Positions 17,802 through 32,328 of a stretch of 64,000 nt of DNA are shown here, piece by piece. The notes below the pieces were generated by a model. The model ran no database searches. It saw nothing but the letters and a program-made list of their open reading frames with translations, and was not told where the DNA came from. A program made the translations under genes and the position numbers. The DNA is from Limimaricola cinnabarinus (lineage in GTDB: Bacteria; Pseudomonadota; Alphaproteobacteria; Rhodobacterales; Rhodobacteraceae). Positions within the stretch are counted from its first letter, which is position 1. The number at the start of each line of letters is the position of its first letter. The stretch is from NCBI RefSeq assembly GCF_002723615.1, contig NZ_KZ304951.1, forward strand, positions 579,344-643,343, in the 5' to 3' direction.

Positions 17802-18118
17802 CTCTGGTCCGTTTCCATCTTTGTCGTCAGGCAGCTGCCCGATCATCGGGCAAGACTCGCGCTTTGCGGCCCAAAGCGCAAGCAGCCACGAAATTGCCAC
17901 GTTTCCCTTGGGGAAGATTATGATTTCATGAAATTTTTACCATGCGTTTGCTGCATAGCAGCATTGCCCTTGCAAGGGATTGTGCATTCGCAGCACGAGC
18001 CTATTTTGATCCTCGAAGACGCAATACGGCGGCTTCGACGACCGGTCCCGCGATCTGGGATCGACCAGAGAGCAGAGACGGCCCAAGCACCGGGCCCCGA
18101 ACCAAAGAGGTATGCGAC
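17802..18118. other. Divergent promoter region between apbC and the DUF1127 gene
   Basis: 317 nt without a gene but dense in symmetric sites: ATTTCATGAAAT (17923-17934), TGCTGC-ATA-GCAGCA (17949-17963) and CCCTTGCAAGGG (17967-17978). A possible sigma-70-like promoter for the plus strand is TTGTGC (17980-17985), 16 nt, TATTTT (18002-18007). The homologous operon of Rhodobacter sphaeroides is driven by the heat-shock sigma factors RpoHI/RpoHII; I cannot point to a clear RpoH-type promoter here. Confidence 0.55.
17949..17963. promoter_or_regulatory. PhaR-like operator upstream of the DUF1127/sRNA operon
   Basis: TGCTGC-ATA-GCAGCA has the same 6-3-6 architecture and arms as the site in the phaP promoter of this window (30307-30321). 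PhaR of R. sphaeroides is reported to bind CTGC-N3/4-GCAG. The site lies 156 nt upstream of the DUF1127 start and just upstream of the candidate promoter. Confidence 0.45.
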
Positions 18119-18341: not shown

Positions 18342-18373
18342 CGACCGGTTTCTCCTCCTCCCTGAACCGGTCG
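18342..18373 (+). ncRNA. CcsR-like hairpin 1
   Basis: Nine-bp perfect stem CGACCGGTT / AACCGGTCG; the 14-nt loop contains CTCCTCCTCCCT. It begins 13 nt after the DUF1127 stop. Confidence 0.82.
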
Positions 18374-18379
18374 CGAGCC

Positions 18380-18414
18380 GCGGTTCCGCCCCTCCTCCTC
18401 CCTGGGCGGCCCGC
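18380..18414 (+). ncRNA. CcsR-like hairpin 2
   Basis: Inner stem CCGCCC / GGGCGG (18386-18391 with 18404-18409), extended by GCGG / CCGC across a small internal loop. The loop is exactly CTCCTCCTCCCT. Confidence 0.78.
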
Positions 18415-18418
18415 ATCG

Positions 18419-18456
18419 AGGCGACGGCATCCTCCTCCTCCCTGATGCCGTCGCCT
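18419..18456 (+). ncRNA. CcsR-like hairpin 3
   Basis: Twelve-bp perfect stem AGGCGACGGCAT / ATGCCGTCGCCT around a 14-nt loop with CTCCTCCTCCCT. The last of the three hairpins before the dimeric units begin. Confidence 0.85.
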
Positions 18457-18473
18457 TGACAGTTTACCGAGAT

Positions 18474-18510
18474 ACGGGCCGCCCTCTCCTCCTCCCTGGG
18501 GCGCGCACGT
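18474..18510 (+). ncRNA. CcsR-like hairpin 4 (first of unit A)
   Basis: Imperfect stem: inner CGCCC / GGGCG with outer ACG / CGT pairing. The loop contains CTCCTCCTCCCT. The 5' flank ATACGGGCC recurs before hairpin 8 and in part before hairpin 10. Confidence 0.72.
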
Positions 18511-18516
18511 AGATCA

Positions 18517-18554
18517 GACCGGCAGGATCCTCCTCCTCCCTGACCTTGCCGGTC
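18517..18554 (+). ncRNA. CcsR-like hairpin 5 (second of unit A)
   Basis: Stem GACCGGCAGG / CCTTGCCGGTC pairs over ten positions including one G-U. The loop contains CTCCTCCTCCCT. The GACCGGC 5' arm recurs in hairpin 9 and, varied, in 7 and 11. Confidence 0.82.
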
Positions 18555-18561
18555 GCACACC

Positions 18562-18595
18562 ACGGGCGCTTCTCCTCCTCCCCTGGAGCGCACGC
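18562..18595 (+). ncRNA. CcsR-like hairpin 6 (first of unit B, degenerate)
   Basis: Short stem GCGCT / AGCGC (18566-18570 with 18587-18591). The loop motif is altered to CTCCTCCTCCCCTGG with one extra C, but CCTCCTCCC is kept. Confidence 0.65.
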
Positions 18596-18603
18596 GGACC
18601 ATA

Positions 18604-18639
18604 GAGCGGCGGGGCCTCCTCCTCCCTGCCCCGTCGCTC
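18604..18639 (+). ncRNA. CcsR-like hairpin 7 (second of unit B)
   Basis: Twelve-bp stem GAGCGGCGGGGC / GCCCCGTCGCTC with one G-U pair. The loop is exactly CTCCTCCTCCCT. Confidence 0.85.
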
Positions 18640-18657
18640 GCAGGAATTCGAATACGG

Positions 18658-18685
18658 GCCGTTCCCTCCTCCTCCCTGGAACGGC
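18658..18685 (+). ncRNA. CcsR-like hairpin 8 (first of unit C)
   Basis: Eight-bp perfect stem GCCGTTCC / GGAACGGC; the loop is exactly CTCCTCCTCCCT. The flank AATACGG resembles that before hairpin 4. Confidence 0.83.
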
Positions 18686-18693
18686 GCGCATCA

Positions 18694-18729
18694 GACCGGC
18701 GGGGCCTCCTCCTCCCTGCCCCGCCGGTC
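18694..18729 (+). ncRNA. CcsR-like hairpin 9 (second of unit C)
   Basis: Twelve-bp perfect stem GACCGGCGGGGC / GCCCCGCCGGTC; the loop is exactly CTCCTCCTCCCT. Its sequence is very close to hairpin 7, supporting duplication. Confidence 0.86.
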
Positions 18730-18739
18730 GCACAGGATA

Positions 18740-18769
18740 CGGATGTCCCTCCTCCCAGACAGGCATCCG
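18740..18769 (+). ncRNA. CcsR-like hairpin 10 (first of unit D, degenerate)
   Basis: Six-bp stem CGGATG / CATCCG. The loop has one CCT fewer (CCCTCCTCCCA) but retains CCTCCTCCC. The most divergent copy. Confidence 0.62.
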
Positions 18770-18776
18770 TTGCATA

Positions 18777-18814
18777 GACCGGTCGGGCCCTCCTCCTCCC
18801 TGGCCAGATCGGTC
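18777..18814 (+). ncRNA. CcsR-like hairpin 11 (second of unit D)
   Basis: Outer stem GACCGGTC / GATCGGTC (one G-U), a G-A mismatch, then GGCC / GGCC. The loop is exactly CTCCTCCTCCCT. Confidence 0.8.
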
Positions 18815-18828
18815 GACCGAGACGGTCA

Positions 18829-18858
18829 CGGGTTCTCCTCCTCCTCCCTGAGGGCCCG
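18829..18858 (+). ncRNA. CcsR-like hairpin 12 (first of unit E)
   Basis: Stem CGGGTTCT / AGGGCCCG pairs over eight positions with two G-U pairs. The motif is lengthened by one CCT (CTCCTCCTCCTCCCT), part of which lies in the stem. Confidence 0.75.
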
Positions 18859-18872
18859 CGCACCGCAAAAAG

Positions 18873-18919
18873 AACGGCGGCGCCCCTCCTCCTCCCTGGG
18901 CGTCGCCGTTTCTCGTTTT
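18873..18919 (+). ncRNA. CcsR-like hairpin 13 with terminator tail
   Basis: Thirteen-bp stem (18873-18885 with 18898-18910, one G-U), the longest of the set; the loop is exactly CTCCTCCTCCCT. It is followed by GTTTCTCGTTTTC, a U-rich stretch, so this hairpin probably also ends the transcript. Confidence 0.83.
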
Positions 18920-29113: not shown

Positions 29114-29653
29114 TTACTTGCTCATCCGCGCCAGCTTGGATTGCAGCTCCGCGAGCTGCTTCTTGATGTCGTCGAGATTGTCGTCGCCGGTCTTGGCCTC
29201 CGGCCCGGACGCGCCCATCATGCCGCCGGTCATCGCCTTGAAGAAGGCCTCCTGCTGCGCGCGCATCGCGTCGAAGCCCGGCATCTGCGCCATGGGCGAG
29301 ACCTTGGTCATGTTCTCCATCATCTTCGACTGACCGTCGCGCAGCATCTCGAAGGAGGCGGCGAGAAACTGCGGCACGACCGAACCGGCCTGGCTGGTAT
29401 AGCTGCGCACGAGATCGGTCAGCACATCCACCGGCAGCACGCTTTCGCCGCGGCTTTCATGTTCGGCGATGATCTGGAGAAGATACTGCCGCGTCAGGTC
29501 GTCACCCGATTTCAGATCGACGATCTGCACCTCGCGGCCCGCGCGGATGAAGCCCGCGATATCCTCGAGCGTGACGTAGTCGCTGGTTTCGGTGTTGTAG
29601 AGCCTGCGGCTGGCATAACGCTTGATCAGAAGCGGTTTCGCGGTCTCGGCCAT
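29114..29653 (-). CDS. phaR: Polyhydroxyalkanoate synthesis repressor PhaR
   Basis: DNA- and PHB-binding repressor (179 aa) that represses phasin genes until granules form and titrate it. The N-terminal PHB/PHA accumulation DNA-binding domain has IKRYASRRLYNTETSDYVTLEDIA, and the second domain runs to about residue 110 with PQFLAASFEMLRDGQ; the C-terminus is Met/Gln-rich with a short coiled coil (DDIKKQLAELQSKLARMSK). ATG at 29651-29653 starts the conserved part. A PhaR-type box lies 19-33 nt upstream of the start, consistent with autoregulation. Confidence 0.95.
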   Translation of the reverse strand: MAETAKPLLIKRYASRRLYNTETSDYVTLEDIAGFIRAGREVQIVDLKSGDDLTRQYLLQIIAEHESRGESVLPVDVLTDLVRSYTSQAGSVVPQFLAASFEMLRDGQSKMMENMTKVSPMAQMPGFDAMRAQQEAFFKAMTGGMMGASGPEAKTGDDNLDDIKKQLAELQSKLARMSK

Positions 29654-29671
29654 CTTCGGTCCCCCAAGGCA

Positions 29672-29686
29672 TGATGCGCTGCAGCA
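29672..29686. promoter_or_regulatory. PhaR-type operator before phaR
   Basis: TGATGC-GCT-GCAGCA, differing from TGCTGC-N3-GCAGCA at one arm position. It lies directly upstream of phaR. Confidence 0.55.
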
Positions 29687-29708
29687 AAAGCCTAGGCCCG
29701 TGTTTCGC

Positions 29709-29745
29709 AAAAAGAAAGGGCGGGCTGCCCGGAGGCAGCCCGCCC
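29709..29745 (-). terminator. Rho-independent terminator after phaP
   Basis: Twelve-bp perfect stem GGGCGGGCTGCC / GGCAGCCCGCCC with a 4-nt loop. On the minus strand it is followed by TTTCTTTTT. It separates phaP from phaR, so phaR needs its own promoter. Confidence 0.9.
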
Positions 29746-29777
29746 GGTCGCGGCGGGGAGGATCGCCGCTGTCTCGC

Positions 29778-30233
29778 TTACTTCGCGCCAGCGGTCGCGG
29801 TGGCCTTGCGGGTCGCGGCCTGCGCGTCGGTGCCGGCCTTCTTGGCGGCGGCGGTCATGTCGTCGCTCATGTCCTTGCCGGCCGAGAGCATCAGCTCGAG
29901 CGTCTCGGTCTGCAGCTTCTTGGCGATCTCGGCAAAGGCGGCCATGTGCCCGGAGGCGGCTTCGGCCGAAGCGGCGGCGAAATCGCTCATCGACTTGGCG
30001 TAATCGGCGGGCTCGGGCTTGGCGCGGGTCACTTCGCCGAACTTGGCAAGCGTGTCCTGGGCCCACTTGGCCGACAGCTCGGTCGATTTCTGCGCGGCCT
30101 CGAGATTGGCGGCCGACAGTTTCTCGGCGAGAGCGGTCTGGTTGCGGAAGGTCTCTTCCATGTTCTTGGTGTCGACGGGGAAGGAGCCCATCATGTCCTT
30201 GAAGATCGCGGTGAAGTCTTGCTGATTGGCCAT
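29778..30233 (-). CDS. phaP: Phasin PhaP (granule-associated protein)
   Basis: Amphipathic, helical, Ala/Lys-rich protein (151 aa) that coats PHB granules. The sequence is the Rhodobacterales phasin type: MANQQDFTAIFKDMM, then long helices such as AEKLSAANLEAAQKSTELSA and an Ala-rich C-terminal tail. An AAGGGA Shine-Dalgarno precedes ATG at 30231-30233. Two PhaR-type boxes lie 75-117 nt upstream. It is between phaC and phaR. Confidence 0.93.
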   Translation of the reverse strand: MANQQDFTAIFKDMMGSFPVDTKNMEETFRNQTALAEKLSAANLEAAQKSTELSAKWAQDTLAKFGEVTRAKPEPADYAKSMSDFAAASAEAASGHMAAFAEIAKKLQTETLELMLSAGKDMSDDMTAAAKKAGTDAQAATRKATATAGAK

Positions 30234-30306
30234 CGGAGGTCCCTTTTCTGGTCGCTGGTGCGGCAGCTCTGAGGCCCCGCTTCGTCTCTGATGACCGGAA
30301 TATGCG

Positions 30307-30321
30307 TGCTGCACCGCAGCA
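30307..30321. promoter_or_regulatory. PhaR-type operator 1 of phaP
   Basis: TGCTGC-ACC-GCAGCA, a perfect 6-3-6 inverted repeat, 74 nt before phaP. It matches the reported CTGC-N3-GCAG core of the PhaR site. Confidence 0.7.
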
Positions 30322-30334
30322 ATTCAAGATGTTT

Positions 30335-30349
30335 TTCTGCGGTGCAGCA
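30335..30349. promoter_or_regulatory. PhaR-type operator 2 of phaP
   Basis: TTCTGC-GGT-GCAGCA, one arm position off the perfect repeat. Its centre is 28 nt from that of operator 1, so two dimers could sit side by side. Confidence 0.65.
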
Positions 30350-30377
30350 AAAAACTTTCCCCCACGGCAGATGCCCC

Positions 30378-32204
30378 CTATTCCGCCGCGAGCCGACCGC
30401 CGGTGACATAGCGCCCCGGCGCCGGTCCGAGCGCGGGATGCGCCTTGGAGCCCGGCTCCCGCGCGGGCACCATCTCGCCCGCCCGGGGCTTCAGCCATGC
30501 CATCCAGGCCGGCCACCAGGAGCCTTCGTGCTTCTGCGCGCCCGCGCGCCACTCCTCGGGGCTGTCGGCGGCGGCATCATTTGACCAGTAGCCGTATTTC
30601 TTCTTGGCGGGCGGGTTGACGATGCCCGCGATATGGCCCGAGCCCGACAGCACGAAGGTCTTGTCCTTCGATCCCATCTTTCGCACGCCGCGCCAGCTCG
30701 AATCCCACGCCGCGATGTGATCGCTCTCGCAGCCCACGGCAAAGACCGGCACCGTCACCTCGGCGATCTTCGCCTCGTGGCCTGCCACGGTGAAGCCGGT
30801 GGTGGCGAAGCGGTCCTCTTGGCACAATCCGCGCAGGTATTCGATCGCCATGCGCGCGGGCAGGTTGGTGCCGTCGCCGTTCCAGTAGAGCAGGTCGAAG
30901 GCGGGCGGCGCCTCGCCCATCATGTAGCTGCGGATCGCGGGCTGGTAGATCAGGTCGCGCGCGCGCAGGAAGGAGAAGGTGCGCGACATGTAGAACTTGT
31001 CGAGCACCCCCGCCGCCCGCGCCTCGGCCTCGATCCCGTCGACGAAATCATCGTCGAGGAACACGCCGACCTCGCCCTGATCCGAGAAATCGGTAAGCGT
31101 GGTGAAGAAGGTCGCGGATTTGACCGACTTGTCCTTGCGCGCCTTGAGCACCGACAGCGTCAGCGCCAGCGTCGTGCCGGCGATGCAGTAGCCCACGGCG
31201 TTGACCTGCCTGACCTTGCAGATCTCCTTCACCGTCTCGATCGCCTGGATGTAGCCGTCCTCGACATAATCGGTCATGCCGATCTCGGCATAGCTCGGAT
31301 CGGGGTTGATCCAGCTGACCACGAAAAGCGTGTGGCCCTGTTCGACGACATGGCGGATCAGGCTGTTCTGCGGCTTGAGATCGAGGATGTAGAACTTGTT
31401 GATCCAGGGCGGAAACAGCACCACGGGCGTCTCGTGCACGTCCTCGGTGGCGGGCGCGTACTGGATCAGCTCGAACAGGTGGTTGCGGAACACCACCTCG
31501 CCCGGCGTGGTGGCGAGGTTCTCGCCCACGCGGAAGGCATCGGCATCGGCCAGCGTCACCACGAGGTCGCCCTCATTGGCCTCCAGATCGCGCACGAGGT
31601 TCTCCATCCCGTCGATCAGGCTCTGGCCCTCGGTCTCCAGCGCCTTTTGCAGCGCATCGGGGTTGGTGGCGAAAAAATTCGTGGGGCTGAACATGTCGAC
31701 GATCTGGCCCGCGAAATAATCGAGCCGCTTCTTCTCGCGCGGCTCCAGCCCCTCGATCGAGGAGACCGCCCTGCGCACCGCCTCGGCATTGGTGAGGTAT
31801 TGCTGCTTGATATAGGCAAACCACGGATGCGTGTCCCACATCGGGTTGGCAAAGCGGCGGTCTTTCGGCCCATCCGAGGCCGGGGCCTGCGCGCCTTGCA
31901 TCATCTTCTGCTGGGTCTCGACGTAATGCTTGAGCGTCTCGCCCCAATAGCCGAGCTGGTGCTCCATCAGCTTGGCCGGGTCGCGCATCATCTCCGACCA
32001 GTAGCTGCCCGCCGCCTTGAGGTAGAGGTCATGGCTCGGCCCCTGCAGCGCCGACGGCACCTGGCGCCCCTGCCCCATCGCCGAGACGAGCCGCTGCGTC
32101 AGCTCCTCGATCCGGGCGAGATTGGCCTCGAGCCGCGCCTTGGCCGCCATGGCCTCGCCGCCCGCCTCCGCTTCCGCGTTCCTGTCCTGATCGTCAGTTG
32201 TCAT
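30378..32204 (-). CDS. phaC: Class I poly(3-hydroxyalkanoate) synthase PhaC
   Basis: PHB polymerase (608 aa) acting at the granule surface on (R)-3-hydroxybutyryl-CoA. The N-terminal PhaC_N domain includes WDTHPWFAYIKQQYL; the alpha/beta-hydrolase domain has the lipase-like box GYCIAGT with catalytic Cys340, the Asp495 of GCESDHIAAW and His524 of SGSGHIAGIVNPP. The length is that of class I enzymes. ATG at 32202-32204 follows GGGAGG. It is divergent from phaZ; the shared 124-nt spacer has a GCAGCA half-site (32233-32238). Confidence 0.96.
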   Translation of the reverse strand: MTTDDQDRNAEAEAGGEAMAAKARLEANLARIEELTQRLVSAMGQGRQVPSALQGPSHDLYLKAAGSYWSEMMRDPAKLMEHQLGYWGETLKHYVETQQKMMQGAQAPASDGPKDRRFANPMWDTHPWFAYIKQQYLTNAEAVRRAVSSIEGLEPREKKRLDYFAGQIVDMFSPTNFFATNPDALQKALETEGQSLIDGMENLVRDLEANEGDLVVTLADADAFRVGENLATTPGEVVFRNHLFELIQYAPATEDVHETPVVLFPPWINKFYILDLKPQNSLIRHVVEQGHTLFVVSWINPDPSYAEIGMTDYVEDGYIQAIETVKEICKVRQVNAVGYCIAGTTLALTLSVLKARKDKSVKSATFFTTLTDFSDQGEVGVFLDDDFVDGIEAEARAAGVLDKFYMSRTFSFLRARDLIYQPAIRSYMMGEAPPAFDLLYWNGDGTNLPARMAIEYLRGLCQEDRFATTGFTVAGHEAKIAEVTVPVFAVGCESDHIAAWDSSWRGVRKMGSKDKTFVLSGSGHIAGIVNPPAKKKYGYWSNDAAADSPEEWRAGAQKHEGSWWPAWMAWLKPRAGEMVPAREPGSKAHPALGPAPGRYVTGGRLAAE

Positions 32205-32328
32205 ACGCCCTCCCACGCCCTAGTTTGCAGGTGCAGCATGCGGCCTGCCGGGACGGGTTTGCGCCCCGTCTGCCGTCAAGGCGGGGAAAGGCCCGGCGGA
32301 CCCCCGACCCCCTGCCTGGAGCAGTCAG

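Follow-up and report, generated by a model that had tools for sequence, protein, structure and literature searches.

The stretch of Limimaricola cinnabarinus DNA analyzed here (the window, 64,000 nt of contig NZ_KZ304951.1) carries, behind a DUF1127 gene, a string of 13 small hairpins that is almost certainly, judging from its sequence, the Limimaricola version of the ccaF1-CcsR locus ("cuckoo", CIN1). Upstream lies what looks like a CTGCNNNGCAG-type operator of the PhaR regulon. The reading that we favor, and that we hold with a probability of about 0.6, is that the locus produces anti-Shine-Dalgarno (anti-SD) RNAs under a double input, from stress and from PhaR. The array itself belongs to a known kind, within which it is long and actively reshuffled, with continuous spacing and with the motif also present in its terminator-like hairpin. 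What a specialist would not expect is the PhaR-type operator.

The hairpin array and its family

Thirteen exact copies of CCTCCTCCC lie on the plus strand between positions 18354 and 18896, in an array that begins a short way past the DUF1127 stop codon (Table 1). The window holds no further copy on either strand, and shuffled sequences contain 1.2 copies on average, none of 100 getting to 13. Folded individually, all 13 copies form a hairpin with CCUCCUCCC in its loop; the loop measures 12 nt in 12 hairpins and 14 nt in hairpin 10. When the array is folded as a whole, the mean unpaired probability of the motif is at least 0.91 in 12 hairpins and 0.78 in hairpin 10, and the fold lies 8.1 standard deviations below dinucleotide shuffles (z -8.1; 0/100 equally low). 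A T-rich stretch, TTTCTCGTTTT, follows the last hairpin, and the gene 3' of the array is LysE-like. A preliminary description of this DNA, which had reported 13 stem-loops with the motif in every loop, a DUF1127 gene in front of them and a U-rich end, was accurate on these points.

Table 1. Features of the window, with strand and supporting evidence
Feature	Position	Strand	Evidence or remark
PhaR-type operator site 1, CTGCATAGCAG	17951..17961	+	PWM window 17946-17966, score 18.0; like CTGCNNNGCAG
Element 2, TTGTGCATTCGCAGCA, possible second PhaR site (TGC-N4-GCA) overlapping putative -35 (TTG)	17980..17995	+	role inferred
Putative -10, CCTATTTTG	18000..18008	+	alignment of 8 Limimaricola promoters; RpoH-like reading inferred
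DUF1127 (CcaF1-type) gene, 69 aa	18119..18328	+	PF06568, E 2.6e-12
CCTCCTCCC starts	18354, 18394, 18434, 18488, 18532, 18574, 18618	+	exact match
CCTCCTCCC starts, continued	18668, 18708, 18748, 18792, 18840, 18888	+	exact match
Cuckoo hairpin 1	18344..18371	+	covariance model match, E 2.8e-6
Cuckoo hairpin 2	18386..18409	+	covariance model match, E 0.00018
Cuckoo hairpin 3	18424..18451	+	covariance model match, E 2e-8
Cuckoo hairpin 4	18478..18506	+	covariance model match, E 0.00019
Cuckoo hairpin 5	18522..18549	+	covariance model match, E 5.9e-6
Cuckoo hairpin 6	18564..18593	+	covariance model match, E 0.0094
Cuckoo hairpin 7	18608..18635	+	covariance model match, E 3.6e-7
Cuckoo hairpin 8	18658..18685	+	covariance model match, E 4.2e-8
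Cuckoo hairpin 9	18698..18725	+	covariance model match, E 9.6e-8
Cuckoo hairpin 10, weak, 14-nt loop	18740..18769	+	E 0.49; hairpin seen in folds
Cuckoo hairpin 11	18782..18809	+	covariance model match, E 6.7e-5
Cuckoo hairpin 12	18830..18857	+	covariance model match, E 8.8e-7
Cuckoo hairpin 13, terminator-like, motif in loop	18878..18905	+	E 7.1e-7; T-rich tail after
phaR, proposed regulator	29114..29653	-	TIGR01848 E 1.2e-45; PF07879 E 1.9e-27
PhaR-type site upstream of phaR	29669..29689	-	matrix score 19.0
Two PhaR-type sites upstream of phaP	30304..30352	-	matrix scores 27.6 and 14.4
phaC-like gene, phaP, phaR	29114-32216	-	~11 kb downstream of array

The assignment to the CcsR/cuckoo family, made in the same description, is borne out by a covariance model (R1) built from 60 hairpins, all of them from other genera. 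The model recovers 12 of the 13 hairpins at E<0.01, hairpin 10 being the exception, and finds nothing below E 0.066 in the rest of the window. Rfam families yield a single gathering-score match in the window, a tRNA, and leave the array unmatched. As far as hairpin order shows, the core of hairpin 10 is decayed in four of its seven counterparts in the genus (L. hongkongensis and genome G299 included), a decay read from the sequences, the list of cores itself carrying no positions.

The stems were said to change by compensatory substitution, and this is supported for comparisons between copies and between genera. In an arm-exchange test on 522 unfiltered clustered copies from 74 named loci, a stem of 8 pairs or longer without interruption is present in 296 copies (57%), versus 5% when the 3' arms are dealt among copies. 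The claim is not supported among orthologous hairpins of the genus, where divergence is low: covariation is not significant, with six cells altered in both arms (shuffles average 3.2 and reach 8 at most), and 40 cells are broken (shuffled mean 46.6, minimum 41). The rows of model R1 had been picked fully paired and their own covariation is therefore no evidence, which is why the unfiltered test was used; the covariation of alignment A2 was dropped as evidence because all 8 pairs had been required in picking its rows.

The order DUF1127 gene, CCTCCTCCC-loop hairpins, terminator is shared with ccaF1 (RSP_6037) and CcsR1-4 (RSs0680a and homologues) of Rhodobacter (Cereibacter) sphaeroides, a gene order that we observed in Cereibacter johrii and C. 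azotoformans. Both Cereibacter genomes have 8 hairpins arranged in four well-separated pairs and followed by a terminator that lacks the motif, whereas the 13 hairpins of the window are continuous and the terminator-like hairpin carries the motif. From matching descriptions, we take RSs0680a to be CcsR1. Its transcript is described as having two stem loops with the motif in each (PMC3927594). Since RSs0680a has two hairpins and the two Cereibacter genomes 8 (4 x 2), the proper ratio is 13 to 8, or 1.6-fold, and not 13 to 4; the "tripled dosage" of the preliminary description, which set 13 hairpins against four RNAs, is thus rejected. The cuckoo RNA family and the CIN1 loci have in common with the array a conserved loop motif, free stems and a linkage to DUF1127, but the cuckoo motif is described with 2-4 hairpins (Reinkensmeier and Giegerich 2015, as described in PMC4504443 and PMC10253847), against 13 in one string here. 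In Sinorhizobium meliloti, NfeR1/alpha-r14 and SmelA075/SmelA099 comprise three or four hairpins with CCUCCUCCC in each, as in our array; NfeR1 is described as being under LsrB and NtrC.

A mobile origin of the array was considered and dropped: there was no phage match, and the only plasmid match was a 51-nt stretch of a Paracoccus jeotgali plasmid (H51) lying at the terminal hairpin and noted with window positions 18360-18366.

Array size in relatives

An alignment scan of named genomes with DUF1127 gave at least 521 relatives, the best-scoring 80 of which constitute the named loci and are thus no random sample; among the matches listed, the closest are L. hongkongensis, L. variabilis and L. 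pyoseonensis. In these best 80 of at least 521 relatives, arrays of the exact motif that follow DUF1127 have a median of 6 hairpins (range 0-26), and four loci reach 13 or more. Tandem pairs occur in 217 of 295 family genomes, and at least 12 of them, as here, in six of the 294 others. The longest array among those examined, with 26 cuckoo hairpins, belongs to Alexandriicola marinus (L085; L018 of G165) and is built on a three-hairpin repeat of ~140 nt. All eight Limimaricola genomes examined have the array (9-17 hairpins). Long arrays thus recur in the genus and in the family, and the notion of an expansion peculiar to "this strain" had to be abandoned.

Counting decayed loops, the Limimaricola arrays comprise 13 (the window's own), 13, 9, 13, 17, 17, 17 and 17 hairpins, the differences always being multiples of four. 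With hairpins assigned by best match and by order, two 17-hairpin arrays read 1-7, 4-7 again, 8-13, and the 9-hairpin array reads 1-5, 10-13. This comparison shows that hairpins enter and leave the array in blocks, which would make hairpin dosage evolvable. With a seed number that evolves blockwise inside a single genus, the array RNA should suit dose-response work on multi-seed sRNAs. Within the window's own array, odd and even hairpins form two classes (64/5000 permutations as high), as expected if the ancestor consisted of two-hairpin CcsR units. There is no lag-4 excess in that array (2862/5000 permutations as high); among all lags, lag 4 scores highest in the relatives with 17 hairpins. 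No AU-rich cut sites were seen between blocks (0.50 vs 0.46), and the longer spacing at block borders proves nothing, the borders having been picked by spacing.

These size changes invite the view that array length is near-neutral: recombination between repeats would add and remove hairpins, a few copies would suffice, and the number 13 would have no meaning of its own. Sizes that range from 0 to 26 in the best 80 of at least 521 relatives, and from 9 to 17 by fours in a single genus, are what this view anticipates. The exact core is kept in 106 of 116 genus hairpins and lost in 10, and the three seeds of S. meliloti NfeR1 are reported to be redundant (PMC10746234). The loop core, however, has changed at only 7 of 716 positions (1.0%), versus 71 of 752 (9.4%) outside hairpins and 117 of 2072 in stems, so that most copies look maintained. 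These counts cover the orthologues of the window hairpins in seven relatives, excluding the extra block hairpins of the 17-hairpin arrays plus 11 of the 17 in L. pyoseonensis; recent duplication or conversion could add to the low loop-core change. We place near-neutrality somewhat below even odds.

Some loci with no or one hairpin behind DUF1127 (L117, L130, L139, L142) have a cuckoo hairpin upstream of the matched DUF1127 gene instead.

A PhaR-type operator in the array promoter

The operator of R. sphaeroides PhaR, a protein that is titrated by PHB according to PMC12542648, is given as CTGCNNNGCAG in the same source (citing Chou and Yang 2010). A matrix was derived from 17 S. meliloti sites that Table 3 of PMC12542648 lists as bound "Efficiently" by PhaR. 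On both strands of the window, its top four hits are those of phaP (27.6, 14.4), phaR (19.0) and the array promoter (18.0), the fifth scoring 10.3. The pattern extends to the best 80 of at least 521 relatives, 79 of which have enough upstream DNA to be counted. Within 300 nt upstream, 63 of the 79 have a score of at least 14, and the remaining 16 promoters stay below it; in the controls, that score is reached by 15 of 981 other windows taken from these loci and by 2 of 79 shuffled sequences. In the same 79 loci, exact CTGCN3GCAG is present within 400 nt upstream in 56 (shuffled, 0/79), and TTGTGCA-N1..5-GCAGCA in 72, with a spacer of three bases every time. An alignment of 13 upstream regions reveals a conserved GCTGCATAGCAGCATTG ... 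ATTGTGCA-NNN-GCAGCA, the first part of which includes CTGCATAGCAG. Thirty further family loci yielded 21 in which a DUF1127 frame is preceded by enough DNA for scoring; 19 of these score at least 14 and 16 have element 2. As a positive control, 18 of 21 scored phasin loci (30 fetched) have a site of at least 8. The genome has seven DUF1127 matches, and cuckoo motifs lie within ~700 nt downstream only at the window's one; among the other six genes, a single one reaches a site score of 14.0, and no site of the remaining five exceeds 6.4. These counts show an operator conserved upstream of the array, a feature absent from the preliminary description.

The R. sphaeroides PhaR operator also has a second spacing, N4, and the core of element 2 could be read in these terms. 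A terminator scan calls element 2 terminator-like (17980-17998). This possibility was set aside: the sequence of the element itself is conserved, beyond its pairing, and on that ground we take it for an operator. The exact sequence TTGTGCATTCGCAGCA occurs nowhere else in the window. MmgR, an sRNA of S. meliloti, belongs to another sRNA family. Its promoter is reported to contain a PhaR site, TTGTGCA-NN-GCAGCA, that is shifted by PhaR in EMSA (PMC12542648); the spacer is 2 in MmgR and 3 in Limimaricola element 2. The putative -10, CCTATTTTG, is kept in six of the eight genus promoters and replaced by GCTATTTTG in two; a sigma-70 scan did not report it.

One could argue that this is an ordinary CcsR locus, read by stress sigma factors only and unconnected with PHB; the conserved upstream element would then be the site of some other regulator or simply part of the promoter. 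The R. sphaeroides locus is indeed reported to have an RpoHI/II promoter (PMC3320616, PMC10253847). The spacer of element 2, 3 nt, differs from the 2 nt of S. meliloti PhaR sites, and site 1 has a central ATA that does not fit the consensus of rhizobial sites. The Cereibacter promoter scores as low as 7.5, with a mismatched site 1 (CCGCATGGCAG) and an intact element 2. Against this stands the fact that a PhaR matrix taken from another organism ranks the array promoter alongside phaP and phaR.

Genomes that have lost PhaR bear on the same question. PhaR is present in 285 of 295 family genomes, which makes its co-occurrence with the array uninformative, and this line of evidence was dropped. Ten family genomes lack PhaR, and four of these have tandem hairpin pairs. 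Two of the four are complete; they have kept the DUF1127 gene together with 8 and 3 hairpins, respectively, and have neither CTGCN3GCAG nor element 2. In both, the GCAGCA parts are lost, which runs counter to a stress-only promoter, and TTGTG, a possible -35, is retained, as a -35 would be. A Phasin_2 match is absent from the one complete PhaR-less genome searched. In two incomplete PhaR-less genomes (84% and 71% complete), element 2 and the first site are kept (20.1, 11.3), and phaR may sit in the missing sequence. Operator decay in two of two complete PhaR-less genomes with arrays is the best hint, with n=2, that PhaR reads the element. Weighing these points, we regard control by stress sigma factors alone as unlikely and control of the array promoter by PhaR as fairly likely. 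Element 2 is also found in all 10 loci with fewer than two hairpins (best 80 of at least 521 relatives), so that DUF1127, and not the array, may be what the site serves.

In the literature covered, we found nothing tying PhaR to CcsR or CcaF1; subscription papers lie outside that coverage, and such a link may have been published. PhaR and DUF1127 are mentioned together in one paper, on Rhodovulum taxonomy, to judge from the text available.

Candidate targets and proposed mechanism

The favored reading, stress and PhaR inputs to anti-SD RNAs, can be developed as follows. The DUF1127 gene and the hairpins would be transcribed together, as in R. sphaeroides, into an mRNA carrying 13 hairpins in its 3' part, the loops of which would expose CCUCCUCCC, an anti-SD seed. 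RNases would be expected to cut this string into shorter RNAs, as is known in R. sphaeroides, and these would occlude ribosome binding sites (RBS) that contain GGGAGGA(GG), including that of an XoxF-like methanol dehydrogenase. Transcription would have two inputs. One is a stress promoter, RpoH-dependent in R. sphaeroides and presumably also in Limimaricola; the other, a new proposal, is PhaR, which would act as a repressor at site 1 and perhaps also at element 2, which overlaps the putative -35. Titration of PhaR by PHB granules, or stress, would thus lead to synthesis of the array RNA and would dampen carbon and C1 oxidation.

CcsR RNAs are known to respond to stress and to affect both C1 metabolism and pyruvate dehydrogenase. 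Control through a PhaR operator would account for this connection, since the locus would then report carbon surplus. Modulation of C1 metabolism by CcsR in R. sphaeroides is described in PMC10253847, and the CCUCCUCCC seeds of NfeR1 are reported to repress mRNAs at the RBS (PMC10746234). We consider anti-SD action on mRNAs likely.

Alternatively, the main role of the array might be that of a sponge, soaking up RNA-binding proteins (CcaF1, Hfq) or other RNAs. CcsR RNAs are reported to bind Hfq, and CcaF1 to bind and mature them (PMC8307010, PMC10253847), and the array multiplies one such site. The motif is nevertheless exactly anti-SD and is the one through which NfeR1 represses mRNAs, by the account cited above; a sponge as the main function strikes us as improbable.

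Targets cannot be named from a 7-nt match to SD sequences, which is too common alone: GGGAGGA-N5-13-ATG occurs 101 times in the genome and the reversed pattern 15 times, an excess that mostly reflects SDs. The full GGGAGGAGG is found at nine places outside the array among the matches listed, five of which lead into frames of at least 300 aa (ATG starts searched). These frames encode a TIGR03075 methanol/ethanol-type PQQ dehydrogenase, PqqB and BenC; the remaining two, named by eye, are an AraC-like regulator and an aconitase-X-like protein. We assume the TIGR03075 dehydrogenase of this genome to be XoxF. Its RBS has the full 9-nt complement of the loop seed. Plasmid homologues of the dehydrogenase, picked one per species from 25 matches listed of 576 records, have GGGAGGA at the RBS in 9 of 9 cases (8 distinct sequences); on two of these plasmids, it precedes 5 of 72 other annotated starts. 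The five pqqB homologues picked all lack the 7-nt match, and pqqB is unsupported as a conserved target. GGGAGGA holds the SD core, so the plain alternative is that the match may be simply a strong SD of an abundant enzyme. We give the XoxF-like methanol dehydrogenase mRNA an even chance of being a direct target.

It is tempting to speculate that, throughout the Rhodobacteraceae, the ccaF1-cuckoo operon is a direct target of repression by the PHB-granule sensor PhaR. Full carbon stores would then set free a multi-hairpin anti-SD RNA that switches off methanol oxidation by XoxF along with other carbon uptake, and the hairpin count, changing by blocks, would set the strength of this brake. We hold this extension tentatively, at clearly less than even odds. 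If true, it would tie PHB storage to the control of translation across a large family of bacteria, in a way open to direct testing.

Elsewhere in the genome, CCTCCTCCC is present in 42 copies outside the array. Only two have clean 8-bp stems among the 40 folded, and the copies were rejected as further cuckoo loci. A weaker model match (G000:C4:17957-17985, plus strand, E 0.018) lacks a clear hairpin context. One clean-stem copy lies inside a long frame. The other (L191:1261; G000:C8:117750-117777, plus strand) is a solitary cuckoo-like hairpin, with a model E of 0.0022, that sits 20 nt after a frame named by eye as aldehyde-dehydrogenase-like and is possibly a single-hairpin 3'-UTR RNA.
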